Positions 1 through 11,681 of a DNA stretch of 64,000 nucleotides are shown here, in pieces. The stretch is from Serratia sp. FDAARGOS_506 (lineage in GTDB: Bacteria; Pseudomonadota; Gammaproteobacteria; Enterobacterales; Enterobacteriaceae). The stretch covers positions 3,968,001-4,032,000 of the forward strand of contig NZ_CP033831.1 of assembly GCF_003812745.1 (NCBI RefSeq), read 5' to 3'. Position 1 is the first letter of the stretch. Each line of letters begins with the position of its first letter. The position numbers were made by a program, and so were the translations under genes. The notes under the pieces are model-generated. The model did no database searches and had not been told where the DNA came from. It worked only from the letters and a program-made list of their open reading frames with translations.

Positions 1-1599
1 GTGTGGATAGCGTTTGAATGTGATGCGCATGCCCAGCTCGCGCTCGATCAGCGCCTCCACCGTCGCTCGATCGCTCAAACTCTCCAGCAGCTGCAGCGCG
101 CGCATATCCTGCAGCCCCTGGTGCAGTACCCGCAGGCGCAGCGACTCCACCGGCTGCAGATCCTCGCCCGGATAAACCACGAACGGATCGCCGGAGGGAA
201 ACGCATGGCCGCTGTCGGTCACCGCGTACGGATTGATGCGTTCGCGCGAATGGGCGCTGTTATAGAAGTTGAATCCCCAATGCAGGAAGCCGGCGATGCG
301 GTACAGATACAGCTGTACGCCCAATATGCGGTTGCGCGCCGACGGTTGGGCAAAGAACCGGTTGGCGACCTCGATCTTCTGCACGCAGCAATAATAGGCC
401 CACAGGCCGGGCACCCGGTGTTCGATAAAAGGCTCGATATGATCGGTCGCGGCGACCGGGGTTTCCACCAGGCCTTGCTGATAGAAAGCGAAATCCGACA
501 GCGCGTCGAAGGTGCGGAAGCCGTCCAGCAGCGGCCGCAGCACGGCGCTGGCGCGCCGGTAGGCCGCCAGGTTGTCCAGCGTCGGCTCATCGGAAATGTG
601 GAACCACACCTGCCGTTCCAGCCCCCGTTCGCGGAACCAGGCGGTCAATTCGGGCAGCAGCGCCTGCAGGAAACGCTGATACGGTTCGCCCTGCGCATCG
701 GTGTGCCAGCCGAAAAGCGGTCGCGCCTCGCCCTGCTCCTCCACCACGATCTTAGGCGCATGCGCCGCCCCCCATTGGGTAAACAGCGGCGCGATTTCGA
801 AGTGCTCGATGCCCTCTTCCTGCGCCAGCGCCACCCATTGCGCCAGGTGGCTGAAATCGAAGCGATACCCTCGCGCCGAACGCGTCACCCTCACCAACTG
901 CACCGTGGTGCGTTCGCCGCCGACGGCGGTATCCAGCGGCGGCGTAAACAGCGGCGTCAGCAGCATATTGACCCCGGCGCGCACCGCACAGCGCACAAAG
1001 TGGCGCACTGCGCGCCAGTAATCCGCGCTGAACACCGCCAGACGGTAGTAATCTACCAGGCAGTCGGTGTGCAGCCACTCGGTGTGCAACAGCGTTTGCG
1101 GCGGCAACGCCGCCGGCACCAGATGCAGCGTCAGCGTAGCCTCGGCCAGCGCCTCGCCGCTCTGGGCATCCAGCAGCCGCAGGGTCAACGGAAAGTCGCC
1201 AGCCAGTTGCGCGTCGGCCGGCGGCGTCAGGGTCAGCCACAGGCTGCCATAATAGCGGCAGGCGGCGAAAAAACGCCGTTGCGGCAGCGGCATCAGCGGG
1301 TCGGGAAATAACCCCGGCTCGGTCGTCAGATAATTCTCGTCGGTCTCGCGATAGCAGGTAAACCCGCTCGGCACCGATTGCACCTGGCGCACGCTGATAT
1401 ACTCCGCCAGCGGCCCGTCGAGTTGATAACACAACTCATGGCGGGTTTCGTTGCCCGGCGTTTGCAAACAGTACACTGCCTGCCAGGAAAGCACCTCGTT
1501 ATTTAACCCGCTCAGCCTTTCCTCTATAGAAATAGGCGGCACACTGTGGCGATGAAATACTTTCTCCAGGCAATGGGTAAATACCAGAGACAGGCGCAT
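1..1599 (-). CDS. DUF4091 (GH123-like) glycosidase-type protein, 3' end cut by window edge
   Basis: An open frame of 533 codons runs from an ATG at 1599 off the left edge, so the C-terminus is missing. An AAGAGG ribosome site lies about ten bases upstream. The N-terminal third looks beta-rich. The C-terminal part resembles the DUF4091/GH123-type barrel, with an Asp-Glu pair (D337-E338 in the string HISDEP) placed like the catalytic pair of GH123 beta-N-acetylgalactosaminidases. No signal peptide is visible, so it should act in the cytoplasm, presumably on a glycoside imported by the divergent ABC transporter. DUF4091 members are mostly uncharacterised. The family call is from motif memory, and the substrate is inferred from neighbouring amino-sugar genes. 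Confidence 0.75.
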   Translation of the reverse strand, partial: MRLSLVFTHCLEKVFHRHSVPPISIEERLSGLNNEVLSWQAVYCLQTPGNETRHELCYQLDGPLAEYISVRQVQSVPSGFTCYRETDENYLTTEPGLFPDPLMPLPQRRFFAACRYYGSLWLTLTPPADAQLAGDFPLTLRLLDAQSGEALAEATLTLHLVPAALPPQTLLHTEWLHTDCLVDYYRLAVFSADYWRAVRHFVRCAVRAGVNMLLTPLFTPPLDTAVGGERTTVQLVRVTRSARGYRFDFSHLAQWVALAQEEGIEHFEIAPLFTQWGAAHAPKIVVEEQGEARPLFGWHTDAQGEPYQRFLQALLPELTAWFRERGLERQVWFHISDEPTLDNLAAYRRASAVLRPLLDGFRTFDALSDFAFYQQGLVETPVAATDHIEPFIEHRVPGLWAYYCCVQKIEVANRFFAQPSARNRILGVQLYLYRIAGFLHWGFNFYNSAHSRERINPYAVTDSGHAFPSGDPFVVYPGEDLQPVESLRLRVLHQGLQDMRALQLLESLSDRATVEALIERELGMRITFKRYPH

Positions 1600-1927
1600 G
1601 ATATTCTGGCCTCTTTATTTTAAATGAATAAACACGGTGAAATTCAGGCTAGCGCCTTTTATCACCACTGACAATAGCCGGTAATAAAAATCGCTCCCAC
1701 GCCCTTCTCTGGCTACCGCAAACCGTTTTTTTTGTTTATTTGCATCACAAAAATGAAAGAAGCTGGCGCTTGCACAATAAAAATATTTTTAATCCCCATT
1801 ATGGTGCAGGGGTTATCAGTTATTCCTATGCCTGCAAGGGCCGCTAACTGCCGCGACAGCAGGAGGAAAACCCACCAAAAGGTTAGCGAAGTGTAAACAA
1901 ACCCACCTTTCACTTGGCCATAAAAGG

Positions 1928-1951
1928 CTTTCGATTTTAACAACAACGAAA
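1928..1951. promoter_or_regulatory. Candidate regulator half-sites (CTTTCG...CGAAAC)
   Basis: The arms TTTCG and CGAAA face each other across 13 bases. The same CTTTCG core recurs in the longer inverted repeat upstream of the DeoR-type gene at 8660-8686. DeoR-family sugar regulators such as AgaR bind CTTTC-rich sites, so this is a plausible operator, inferred only. Confidence 0.3.
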
Positions 1952-1986
1952 CATTGGCGCCCCATTTTTGGGCATCCCGGGGTGTA

Positions 1987-9631: not shown

Positions 9632-9656
9632 CCGAGGCTTTTAAGGAGTTGTCATT

Positions 9657-10817
9657 ATGAACGCGTATTTCTCTTACGAGGCGGATTGGCTGAAGCAGCG
9701 CAGCGCCTGGCACACCGCCGCAGAGATTTGGCAGCAGCCCGATCTATGGGCGGCGCTGCACCGGCAACTGCAGGATCAACAGGCGCAGTGGCAGCCGTTC
9801 CTGGCGCCGCTGTTGGCCAACCCGCGCCTGCAAATCATACTGTGCGGCGCCGGCAGTTCAGCGTTCGCCGGCCGTGCCCTGGCGCCCTGGCTGCGCGAAA
9901 AAACCGGCCGCGACGTGGCGGCCTACGGCACCACCGATATCGTCGCCAACCCGCGGCAGTACCTCGATCCTGAGCGGCCAACGCTGCTGGTCTCCTTCGC
10001 CCGCTCGGGCAACAGCCCGGAGAGCGTGGCGACGGTGGAGCTGGCCGACCAACTGCTGCCGGAAAGCTACCACCTGATGCTGGTCTGCAACCCGGACAGC
10101 AAGCTGGCGCAGTATGCGCATCGGCGCGACAACGTCTGTTCGCTGGTGATGCCGCAAGGCTCCAACGATCAGAGCTTCGCCATGACCTCCAGCTTCAGCT
10201 GCATGATGCTGAGCGCCGCGCTGCTGCTCGGCCCGCTTTCGCTCGAGGCCGCCCAGGCGCCGCTGAACGCCATGGTGCAGCGCTGCCGCGCACTGCGCGA
10301 AACGCTGCAGCCGCAGGTGAAAGCGCTGGCCGCCAGCGGTTTCCGCCGTTATATCACCCTCGGCGGCAGCTGCTTTACCGGCCTGGCGGAAGAGGCCTCG
10401 CTCAAGATGCTGGAGCTGACCGCCGGGCGCATCGTGACGCGCTACGACTCGCCGCTCGGCCTGCGCCACGGCCCTAAATTTATGGTCGACGGCCAAACAT
10501 TGGTGGTGCTTATGTTCTCCCACGATGATTACGCCCGCCAGTATGACCGCGATCTGTGGAACGAGCTGCAGCGCGACGGGCTGGCGATGCAATTGGTCGG
10601 TTTGACCGGCGCTCCCCAGACGCCGTCCGATGCCTTGCTGCCTATGCACCAGGCCACGGACGATATCTGGCTGCTGTTCCCGTATCTGCTGTTCAGCCAA
10701 ATGCTGGCCTTCGAGAGTTCGCTGGCGCTGGGGCTGACCCCGGACAACCCTTGCCCGACCGGCGAGGTTAACCGGGTGGTGAAAGGCGTGACGATTTACC
10801 GTTTCCCTGTGCTGTAA
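9657..10817 (+). CDS. SIS-domain sugar isomerase/deaminase, AgaS-like
   Basis: This 386-residue protein has two SIS domains (about residues 55-200 and 215-360) with phosphosugar-binding motifs GAGSSAF and SFARSGNSPES, and the string GLRHGPK near the active site. Length and layout match AgaS, which converts galactosamine-6-phosphate to tagatose-6-phosphate with release of ammonia. The glutaminase domain of GlmS is absent, so it is a deaminase/isomerase, not a synthase. It has a strong AAGGAG site and is ten bases before the aldolase. The match to AgaS suggests a galactosamine-type sugar, but related SIS proteins act on glucosamine or fructosamine phosphates. Confidence 0.82.
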   Translation: MNAYFSYEADWLKQRSAWHTAAEIWQQPDLWAALHRQLQDQQAQWQPFLAPLLANPRLQIILCGAGSSAFAGRALAPWLREKTGRDVAAYGTTDIVANPRQYLDPERPTLLVSFARSGNSPESVATVELADQLLPESYHLMLVCNPDSKLAQYAHRRDNVCSLVMPQGSNDQSFAMTSSFSCMMLSAALLLGPLSLEAAQAPLNAMVQRCRALRETLQPQVKALAASGFRRYITLGGSCFTGLAEEASLKMLELTAGRIVTRYDSPLGLRHGPKFMVDGQTLVVLMFSHDDYARQYDRDLWNELQRDGLAMQLVGLTGAPQTPSDALLPMHQATDDIWLLFPYLLFSQMLAFESSLALGLTPDNPCPTGEVNRVVKGVTIYRFPVL

Positions 10818-10826
10818 GGAGATCCC

Positions 10827-11681
10827 ATGTATCTGATAGCCAACCGAGAAATGCTGCTCAAGGCGCAGCGCCAGGGTTACGCCGTTCCGGCGTTTAACGT
10901 CCACAATCTGGAAACCGTGCAGGTGGTGGCGGAAACCGCCGCCGAGCTGCGCTCGCCGGTGATCATGGCCGGCACGCCCGGCACCTTCAGCTACGCCGGC
11001 ACCGACTACCTGATCGGCATTTGCCAATCGGCCGCGCACCGCTACGATTTGCCGCTGGCGCTGCATCTGGATCATCACGAAGAGCTGGACGACATCGAGC
11101 ACAAGGTGAAAAGCGGCATCCGTTCGGTGATGATCGACGGTTCCCATCTGCCGTTCGAGCAGAACATCGCCAAAGTGGCCGCTGCGGTCGCCTTGTGCCA
11201 CCGCTATGGCGCCAGCGTGGAAGCGGAACTGGGCCGCCTGGGTGGGCAGGAAGACGATCTGATCGTCGATACGGCGGACAGCTTCTATACCGACCCGGCG
11301 GCGGCACGCGAGTTCGTCACCGCCACCGGCATCGATTCGCTGGCGGTGGCGATCGGTTCCGCCCACGGCCTTTATCACGGCGAGCCAAAGCTGGACTTCG
11401 AACGCCTGGCGCTGATCCGCGAACAGGTGGACGTGCCCCTGGTGCTGCACGGCGCCTCCGGCATTCCGGAGGCGATGGTCAAGCGCGCGATCTCGCTCGG
11501 CGTCTGCAAGGTCAACGTCGCCACCGAACTGAAAATCGCCTTCGCCGACGCGGTGAAAAGCTACTTTTCACAGCATCCGGATGCCAACGACCCGCGCAAA
11601 TACATCGTCCCCGGCAAGCTGGCGATGAAAGAAGTGGTGGCGGAAAAGATCCGCATCTGCGGCAGCAGCGGCATGCTGTAA
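10827..11681 (+). CDS. Class II ketose-bisphosphate aldolase, KbaY/GatY-like
   Basis: This 284-residue protein matches the length and motifs of tagatose-1,6-bisphosphate aldolase catalytic subunits: FNVHN near residue 23, catalytic Asp82 with zinc ligand His83 in HLDHHEE, and the phosphate-binding string LHGASGIPE. The reaction yields dihydroxyacetone phosphate and glyceraldehyde-3-phosphate in the cytoplasm. KbaY and GatY normally need a KbaZ/GatZ partner for full activity; none is in the window. Pairing with the AgaS-like gene supports tagatose over fructose bisphosphate as substrate. A GGAG site precedes the ATG. Confidence 0.85.

Follow-up and report, generated by a model that had tools for sequence, protein, structure and literature searches.

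The window analysed in this study is a stretch of 64,000 nucleotides from a 4.86-Mb Serratia genome (Serratia sp. FDAARGOS_506, C2:3968001-4032000), and its first 11,681 positions hold ten genes that probably serve the catabolism of N-acetylgalactosamine (GalNAc). At the left end, on the minus strand, lies the gene of a DUF4091 protein (1-1599), a putatively cytosolic beta-N-acetylgalactosaminidase of the GH123 'Group 4' type. A divergent promoter region (1600-2064) separates it from nine genes on the plus strand. The first four encode an ATP-binding cassette (ABC) importer: a sugar-binding protein matching SBP_bac_1 (2065-3318), two permeases matching BPD_transp_1 (3382-4338 and 4349-5167) and an ATPase of the UgpC/MalK type (5189-6301; NF008653, 457.7 bits, cut-off 432). 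They are followed by an oxidoreductase of the Gfo/Idh/MocA family (6322-7605), putatively an accessory, and by a ROK sugar kinase (7608-8528), proposed here as a GalNAc kinase. After a second promoter region (8529-8860) come AgaR, a repressor of the DeoR family (8861-9631; NF040755, 384.8 bits, cut-off 260), AgaS, a galactosamine-6-phosphate deaminase/isomerase with a SIS domain (9657-10817), and a GatY/KbaY-like tagatose-1,6-bisphosphate aldolase (10827-11681).

The ten reading frames were confirmed in place and order as a preliminary description of this DNA had them, and family searches with the window proteins agree with the naming; the picture of a ten-gene locus in which a DUF4091 protein faces an ABC importer is thus borne out. 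The order of all ten genes is kept in 18/18 other same-genus regions fetched, so the arrangement is beyond chance. In region L047 (G022) the matches for the ATPase and the kinase are partial and extend at best over 70% and 76% of the respective protein; gene decay or sequencing errors may be the cause.

The hydrolase, the importer and the kinase

The hydrolase gene encodes 556 amino acids, of which the window covers 533; its final 72 bases, 23 codons plus the stop, fall outside the left edge. The protein matches the GH123 catalytic domain (GH123_cat, PF13320) with 348.4 bits against a cut-off of 23.1, along profile positions 1-324 of 324. Which kind of GH123 enzyme is it? Among solved structures searched with phmmer, its best relatives are 8k2l (E = 2.4e-147) and 8k2n (E = 1.8e-122), both carrying the name monosaccharide-releasing beta-N-acetylgalactosaminidase; the Niabella enzyme 8q8h (2.1e-47) and 8p4l (2.5e-47) are weaker, and 8k2j (2.4e-24), 8k2h (9.8e-07) and 8k2f (0.0036) are the weakest. 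The assignment of chains to enzymes and groups relies on molecule names, supplemented by residue numbers in the case of 8k2l and 8k2n, and we infer that these two are NgaP2 and NgaLy, which together with NgaBf and NgaBl are members of Group 4 (Sumida et al. 2024, PMC11087588). By phmmer E-values the hydrolase is closer to Group 4 chains than to those of other groups, and over the aligned stretch it shares 47% identity with each of NgaP2 and NgaLy. The catalytic DE pair is present (D337, E338), 9/9 residues listed as conserved in PMC11087588 are kept, and all five positions of the Group 4 pocket are the same as in NgaP2. Note that at 'D297' of that paper both the NgaP2 chain as deposited and the Serratia protein have Q.

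In these catalytic, conserved and pocket positions the hydrolase is like the characterised Group 4 enzymes, while it differs from them in having a host among the Enterobacterales and in lying inside an aga locus. The label 'GH123-like' given before is upheld and sharpened to Group 4 GH123 by the phmmer matches, the identity and the conserved residues, and a hydropathy scan finds no hydrophobic stretch in the first 45 residues, in keeping with the reported lack of a signal peptide. We propose that the DUF4091 protein is a cytosolic Group 4 GH123 exo-beta-N-acetylgalactosaminidase. The four assayed enzymes of the group are active on the p-nitrophenyl (pNP) glycoside GalNAc-beta-pNP and inactive on GalNAc-alpha-pNP, and their activity on the N-acetylglucosamine (GlcNAc) substrate GlcNAc-beta-pNP is 4.7% at most (Table 1, PMC11087588). 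Their roles were inferred by the discoverers from gene neighbours and an interaction database (PMC11087588).

The binding protein of the importer has a hydrophobic, signal-peptide-like stretch at its N-terminus in the same kind of scan. The ROK kinase scores 278.6 bits with the NagK model, below its cut-off of 380, and a separate NagK over the cut-off (527.8 bits) exists elsewhere in the genome; judged by these scores, the window kinase is a NagK paralogue and not the housekeeping NagK. Import by LnbABC, a bifidobacterial ABC importer, leads into a breakdown route other than that downstream of the Serratia importer, where the hydrolase and AgaS are found. Both importers are ABC systems, with a GalNAc-containing sugar as the substrate of LnbABC and, by analogy, as the proposed one in Serratia. 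LnbABC is listed among GalNAc transporters (PMC5583593).

The aga genes at two places in the genome

The SIS protein scores 541.4 bits with the AgaS model TIGR02815 (cut-off 529.2), against 69.3 for GlmD and 36.1 for GlmS, which sustains the view that it is AgaS and not a fructosamine or glucosamine enzyme. It is single-copy: there is one match over the cut-off genome-wide, the other one reaching 30 bits. The aldolase passes TIGR01858 (481.3 bits, cut-off 443.55) and is single-copy as well, the other genome match (82.7) being under the cut-off; the former name of KbaY-like aldolase stands in the wider form KbaY/GatY-like, with the stricter KbaY model NF009375 not reached. In E. coli, deletion of agaS stops the use of both GalNAc and galactosamine (PMC3668189).

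Are there parts missing from the pathway? The preliminary description had not found AgaA, a tagatose-6-phosphate kinase and KbaZ in the window and supposed that ABC import plus a kinase replaces the phosphotransferase system (PTS). It is correct that the locus has no KbaZ gene. However, a second aga locus is found on the minus strand at C2:569168-573848 (L142:6169-10849) of the same genome, with agaR2, kbaZ and the genes of EIIB, EIIC, EIID and EIIA, so that the idea of a missing KbaZ is rejected, and the replacement of the PTS fails with it. KbaZ (about C2:571771-573042) matches PF08013 with 662 bits, AgaR2 is 76% identical to the window AgaR, and the PTS is of the mannose/Aga type with four subunits. 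The two aga places are 3.4 Mb apart along the contig, or, should the contig be circular, 1.4 Mb by the opposite path. As for AgaA, a single NagA-family match exists genome-wide (TIGR00221, E <= 0.001), which is NagA, and there is no AgaA of its own besides it. Since NagA is present and E. coli NagA can stand in for AgaA (PMC3668189), the absent AgaA is in principle no gap.

KbaZ and AgaS each occur in 22/30 genus genomes, and these are the identical 22 (E <= 1e-50); the complete hydrolase occurs in 19, all of them (19/19) within this set. In the fetched region of three genomes, G016 and G021 of the genus and G106 of another genus, importer, oxidoreductase and kinase are absent and no intact hydrolase or agaR is present; AgaS and the aldolase are retained. 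Fragments of the hydrolase and agaR are left in G021 and G106, while none is seen in the fetched region of G016. One further Serratia genome among the 22, G025, has a compact and different aga cluster (L173:4447-12271) with an AgaR-like regulator, KbaZ, AgaS (44% identical), aldolase, a BcrAD-type kinase, an EamA permease and a melibiase-type hydrolase. By its gene content this cluster is a third kind of entry.

Compared with the aga/gam regulon of E. coli, the Serratia genome has the same AgaR, AgaS, aldolase, KbaZ and Aga-type PTS, but it has them at two distant places, with two AgaR paralogues, no separate AgaA and an extra branch of importer, hydrolase and kinase. In Shewanella a permease and a kinase (AgaP-AgaK) take the place of the PTS (PMC2996990). 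There, as proposed for Serratia, a kinase gives GalNAc-6-phosphate without the PTS; in Serratia, however, an ABC importer and a cytosolic hydrolase stand where AgaP does, and the PTS is retained too. Within the window aga locus, the part examined for this, an AgaP-type permease with AgaK is not present, the ABC importer and the ROK kinase being found instead, whereas the cluster of G025 resembles the Shewanella version with its permease and BcrAD-type kinase.

Could both places be under common control? The AgaR sites of E. coli hold a motif of the CTTTC/GAAAG type. The promoter regions of the hydrolase and binding protein, of agaR and of agaR2 contain 17 such pentamers, with six in 1600-2064 and five in 8529-8860, while dinucleotide shuffles have 3.2 on average and 0/1000 reach 17, a count that overstates the significance since the pentamer was chosen after the sequences had been viewed. 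A typed operator pattern gave 6 matches in place of 2.56 expected, and led nowhere. In 18/18 other Serratia, the counterpart of 1600-2064 has 6 to 8 pentamers and that of 8529-8860 has 4 or 5. The clusters suggest candidate AgaR operators, and AgaR and AgaR2 probably control both places.

Related loci in other genera are named here from the best-scoring 80 loci. In Rouxiella (L060), KbaZ lies within the locus, between agaR and agaS (TIGR02810, 677 bits), and in L062, L064 and L143 a gene at this position has an N-terminus similar to KbaZ, the comparison covering the N-terminus only. The locus with a KbaZ, putative by the same N-terminal likeness, also occurs in Serratia sp. M24T3 and on a contig labelled Chryseobacterium. 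Under the label Chryseobacterium sp. 18061, record L062 contains a locus of enterobacterial, Rouxiella-like type, and contamination or mislabelling of the record is probable. The locus of Brenneria (L058) lacks the oxidoreductase, and its ATPase and kinase frames are 23 bases apart. In Pantoea the oxidoreductase is likewise not at this position, a 25% relative following agaR, and AgaS and aldolase are not seen within the stretch examined. The other loci come mainly from Paenibacillus, other Bacilli and Clostridia. One of them, L106 of Thalassobacillus pellis, has in a row a binding protein, two permeases, GH123, a GntR regulator, an aldolase, a PfkB kinase, SIS, ROK, NagA (376.9 bits, cut-off 225.65) and an oxidoreductase; its binding protein and permeases are 33, 42 and 46% identical to those of the window, and no ATPase gene is there. 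By analogy, this row independently supports the proposed steps.

A proposed second entry and its alternatives

Quite probably the locus provides GalNAc catabolism with a second entry, giving one trunk with two entries, one by the PTS and the other by ABC importer, hydrolase and kinase. Membership in families, gene order, single copies and co-occurrence form the basis from which substrates, fluxes and regulation are inferred. In this scenario the substrate of the ABC importer would be a small glycoside whose non-reducing end carries beta-GalNAc, to be cut by the GH123-type hydrolase once in the cytosol. GalNAc-6-phosphate would then be made by the ROK kinase and deacetylated by NagA, which is encoded elsewhere. 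AgaS would deaminate and isomerise galactosamine-6-phosphate to tagatose-6-phosphate, a further kinase, not among the locus genes, would phosphorylate this to tagatose-1,6-bisphosphate, and the aldolase with KbaZ from the distant operon would cleave the product. Free GalNAc would enter through the Aga-type PTS encoded beside KbaZ and then use the same AgaS and aldolase. Why should the hydrolase branch have its own kinase? One explanation is that the PTS cannot phosphorylate a sugar that is released in the cytosol. And because the window locus holds the only AgaS and the only such aldolase of the genome, one trunk probably serves two entries. The earlier suggestion of importer-linked intracellular cleavage of a GalNAc glycoside that feeds AgaS and the aldolase is thus supported by sequence, in the form of beta-GalNAc glycosides.

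Several observations weigh against the two-entry scenario. AgaS clears its cut-off by just 12 bits, the aldolase stays below the strict KbaY model (398.9 against 542 bits), and no tagatose-6-phosphate kinase could be singled out among the 13 PfkB-family matches in the genome. The nearest solved relative of the binding protein is Lmo0181 (5f7v, E = 4.2e-37), which gives no hint of an amino sugar. The SIS protein of L106 is nearer to GlmD (180 bits) than to AgaS (147), and that of L121 is also closer to GlmD. The view of G106 was that of its fetched region, so any KbaZ or PTS of this genome may lie outside it. To these points the late choice of the pentamer has to be added, as well as the oxidoreductase, which is kept in most copies yet has no step in the route.

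Two other scenarios may account for the locus. If ABC import and the kinase had replaced the PTS, the locus would form a self-standing pathway, as its own lack of PTS and KbaZ genes and the permease-plus-kinase precedent in Shewanella (PMC2996990) might suggest. We hold this very improbable, for the genome has an Aga-type PTS, KbaZ and a second AgaR, and KbaZ is present in 19/19 genus genomes with a complete hydrolase. The branch might instead serve mainly GlcNAc or other hexosamine sugars, its link with AgaS being incidental. GlcNAc kinase is indeed the closest scoring family for the ROK kinase (279 bits), another point against the GalNAc route. Nevertheless, a NagK over the cut-off exists separately, the four assayed Group 4 enzymes have at most the low activity on GlcNAc-beta-pNP given above (PMC11087588), and AgaR, AgaS and the aldolase adjoin the branch in 18/18 other Serratia regions and in Brenneria, so that this alternative is improbable.

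The individual parts of the two-entry scenario are known: Group 4 enzymes since 2024, the aga pathway, non-PTS entry, and an ABC importer among the GalNAc transporters. Their combination, in which a cytosolic Group 4 branch meets an aga trunk shared with a distant PTS, was not found in print by a search mostly at the level of abstracts. Such a search also found no literature linking agaO, N-acetylgalactosamine and an oxidoreductase, and none on a GalNAc ABC locus that names Serratia.

The oxidoreductase, the flanking genes and the meaning of the locus

What does the oxidoreductase do? The preliminary description had noted that it has no place in the classical route and that the path may therefore be new. 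The former is still the case; the latter does not follow, for the oxidoreductase is absent from the Brenneria copy (comparison at the Brenneria locus only), and so looks like an accessory of the locus and gives no proof of a new path. Four cysteines are invariant in it (C237, C240, C246 and C290, numbered from 6322), which in a Gfo/Idh/MocA protein suggests a metal site; GH188 and GH109 are described as metal-independent. The AlphaFold model has a mean predicted local distance difference test (pLDDT) score of 83.7 and is weak over residues 221-300, and therefore whether the four cysteines meet is not readable from it. By structural comparison, the nearest solved fold is that of the GH188 NAD-dependent sulfoquinovosidases (PMC10755693), at 18-22% identity. 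For Lys107, Tyr136, Glu163, His193 and His321 of GH188, the candidates by spacing only are K110, Y141, E167, H199 and H372, and Glu189 is apparently not kept, since by spacing Q195 would be at its position. Unlike GH188, the Serratia protein has a cysteine-bearing insertion and lies in no sulfonate context. The GH109 structure 2ixa matches with E = 7.4e-11, 43rd of 48 distinct sequences and in the NAD domain only; GH109 is not among the best 50 VIA-align rows for the model either, which excludes nothing. Membership in GH109 thus has no support above that of other Gfo/Idh/MocA proteins.

A scan for the subfamily took in 43 of the best-scoring 80 relative loci, and its counts are lower bounds, as no more than 42 candidates were scored in each genome. 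At least 119 matches (E <= 1e-30) were found in 38/42 Firmicutes genomes with a Group 4 relative, with up to 14 in one genome, and a dedication of the oxidoreductase to GalNAc is rejected with these numbers. The subfamily gene stands beside the hydrolase in 6/43 loci (L076, L079, L082, L103, L133 with one gene between, and L109 with a shorter frame), where rough arithmetic expects about 0.1 of 43 by chance, and weaker relatives do so in L081, L107 and L131. In L141:421-11986 (G327), a relative of the oxidoreductase occurs with Aga-type PTS subunits, an AgaR-like regulator and a GH31 protein that is nearest to alpha-N-acetylgalactosaminidase.

The oxidoreductase may be a sugar dehydrogenase or a 3-keto-glycoside reductase, acting on modified or oxidised imported galacto-configured glycosides or on the other half of the disaccharide; we regard this as quite possible, though at somewhat less than an even chance. 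The 75 neighbours of 20 relatives (Paenibacillus, Cohnella, Bacillus and similar) include 23 ABC permease domains, 5 GH35 (one below the cut-off), 3 alpha-L-fucosidases, 2 GHL6 and 1 GH123, with one GH95 in addition, while the majority are not glycosidases, the evidence names no specific substrate and the family is very broad. The protein could also be an NAD-dependent, redox-neutral glycosidase like GH109 or GH188 that cleaves GalNAc glycosides alongside the beta-specific hydrolase, perhaps those with an alpha linkage; we consider this unlikely. More doubtful still is that the four-cysteine proteins form an uncharacterised subfamily of such glycosidases, which would attack imported galacto-configured glycosides alongside classical hydrolases. 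If true, linkages of both anomeric forms would be cleavable in the cytosol.

As to the flanking sequence, the hydrolase gene runs on for 72 bases left of base 1, where the preliminary description had expected more to be learned, but the next gene is no member of the locus. It encodes a 602-aa protein, lysophospholipid-acyltransferase-like by eye, and since it is retained by the three genomes with little of the locus left, it is not part of it; an extension of the locus to the left is rejected. To the right, at 11988-16719, a 103-aa secreted-type protein is followed by ogt-, fnr-, uspE- and pntB-like genes (named by eye), which appear to be ordinary core genes.

With the two-entry scenario, a conserved Serratia locus gains a testable substrate class and Group 4 GH123 gains a likely pathway, and the oxidoreductase marks a large subfamily that is often beside sugar importers. 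The locus would be an example of a catabolic trunk that is split over the chromosome and serves two uptake routes, with one route absent from the three genomes G016, G021 and G106.

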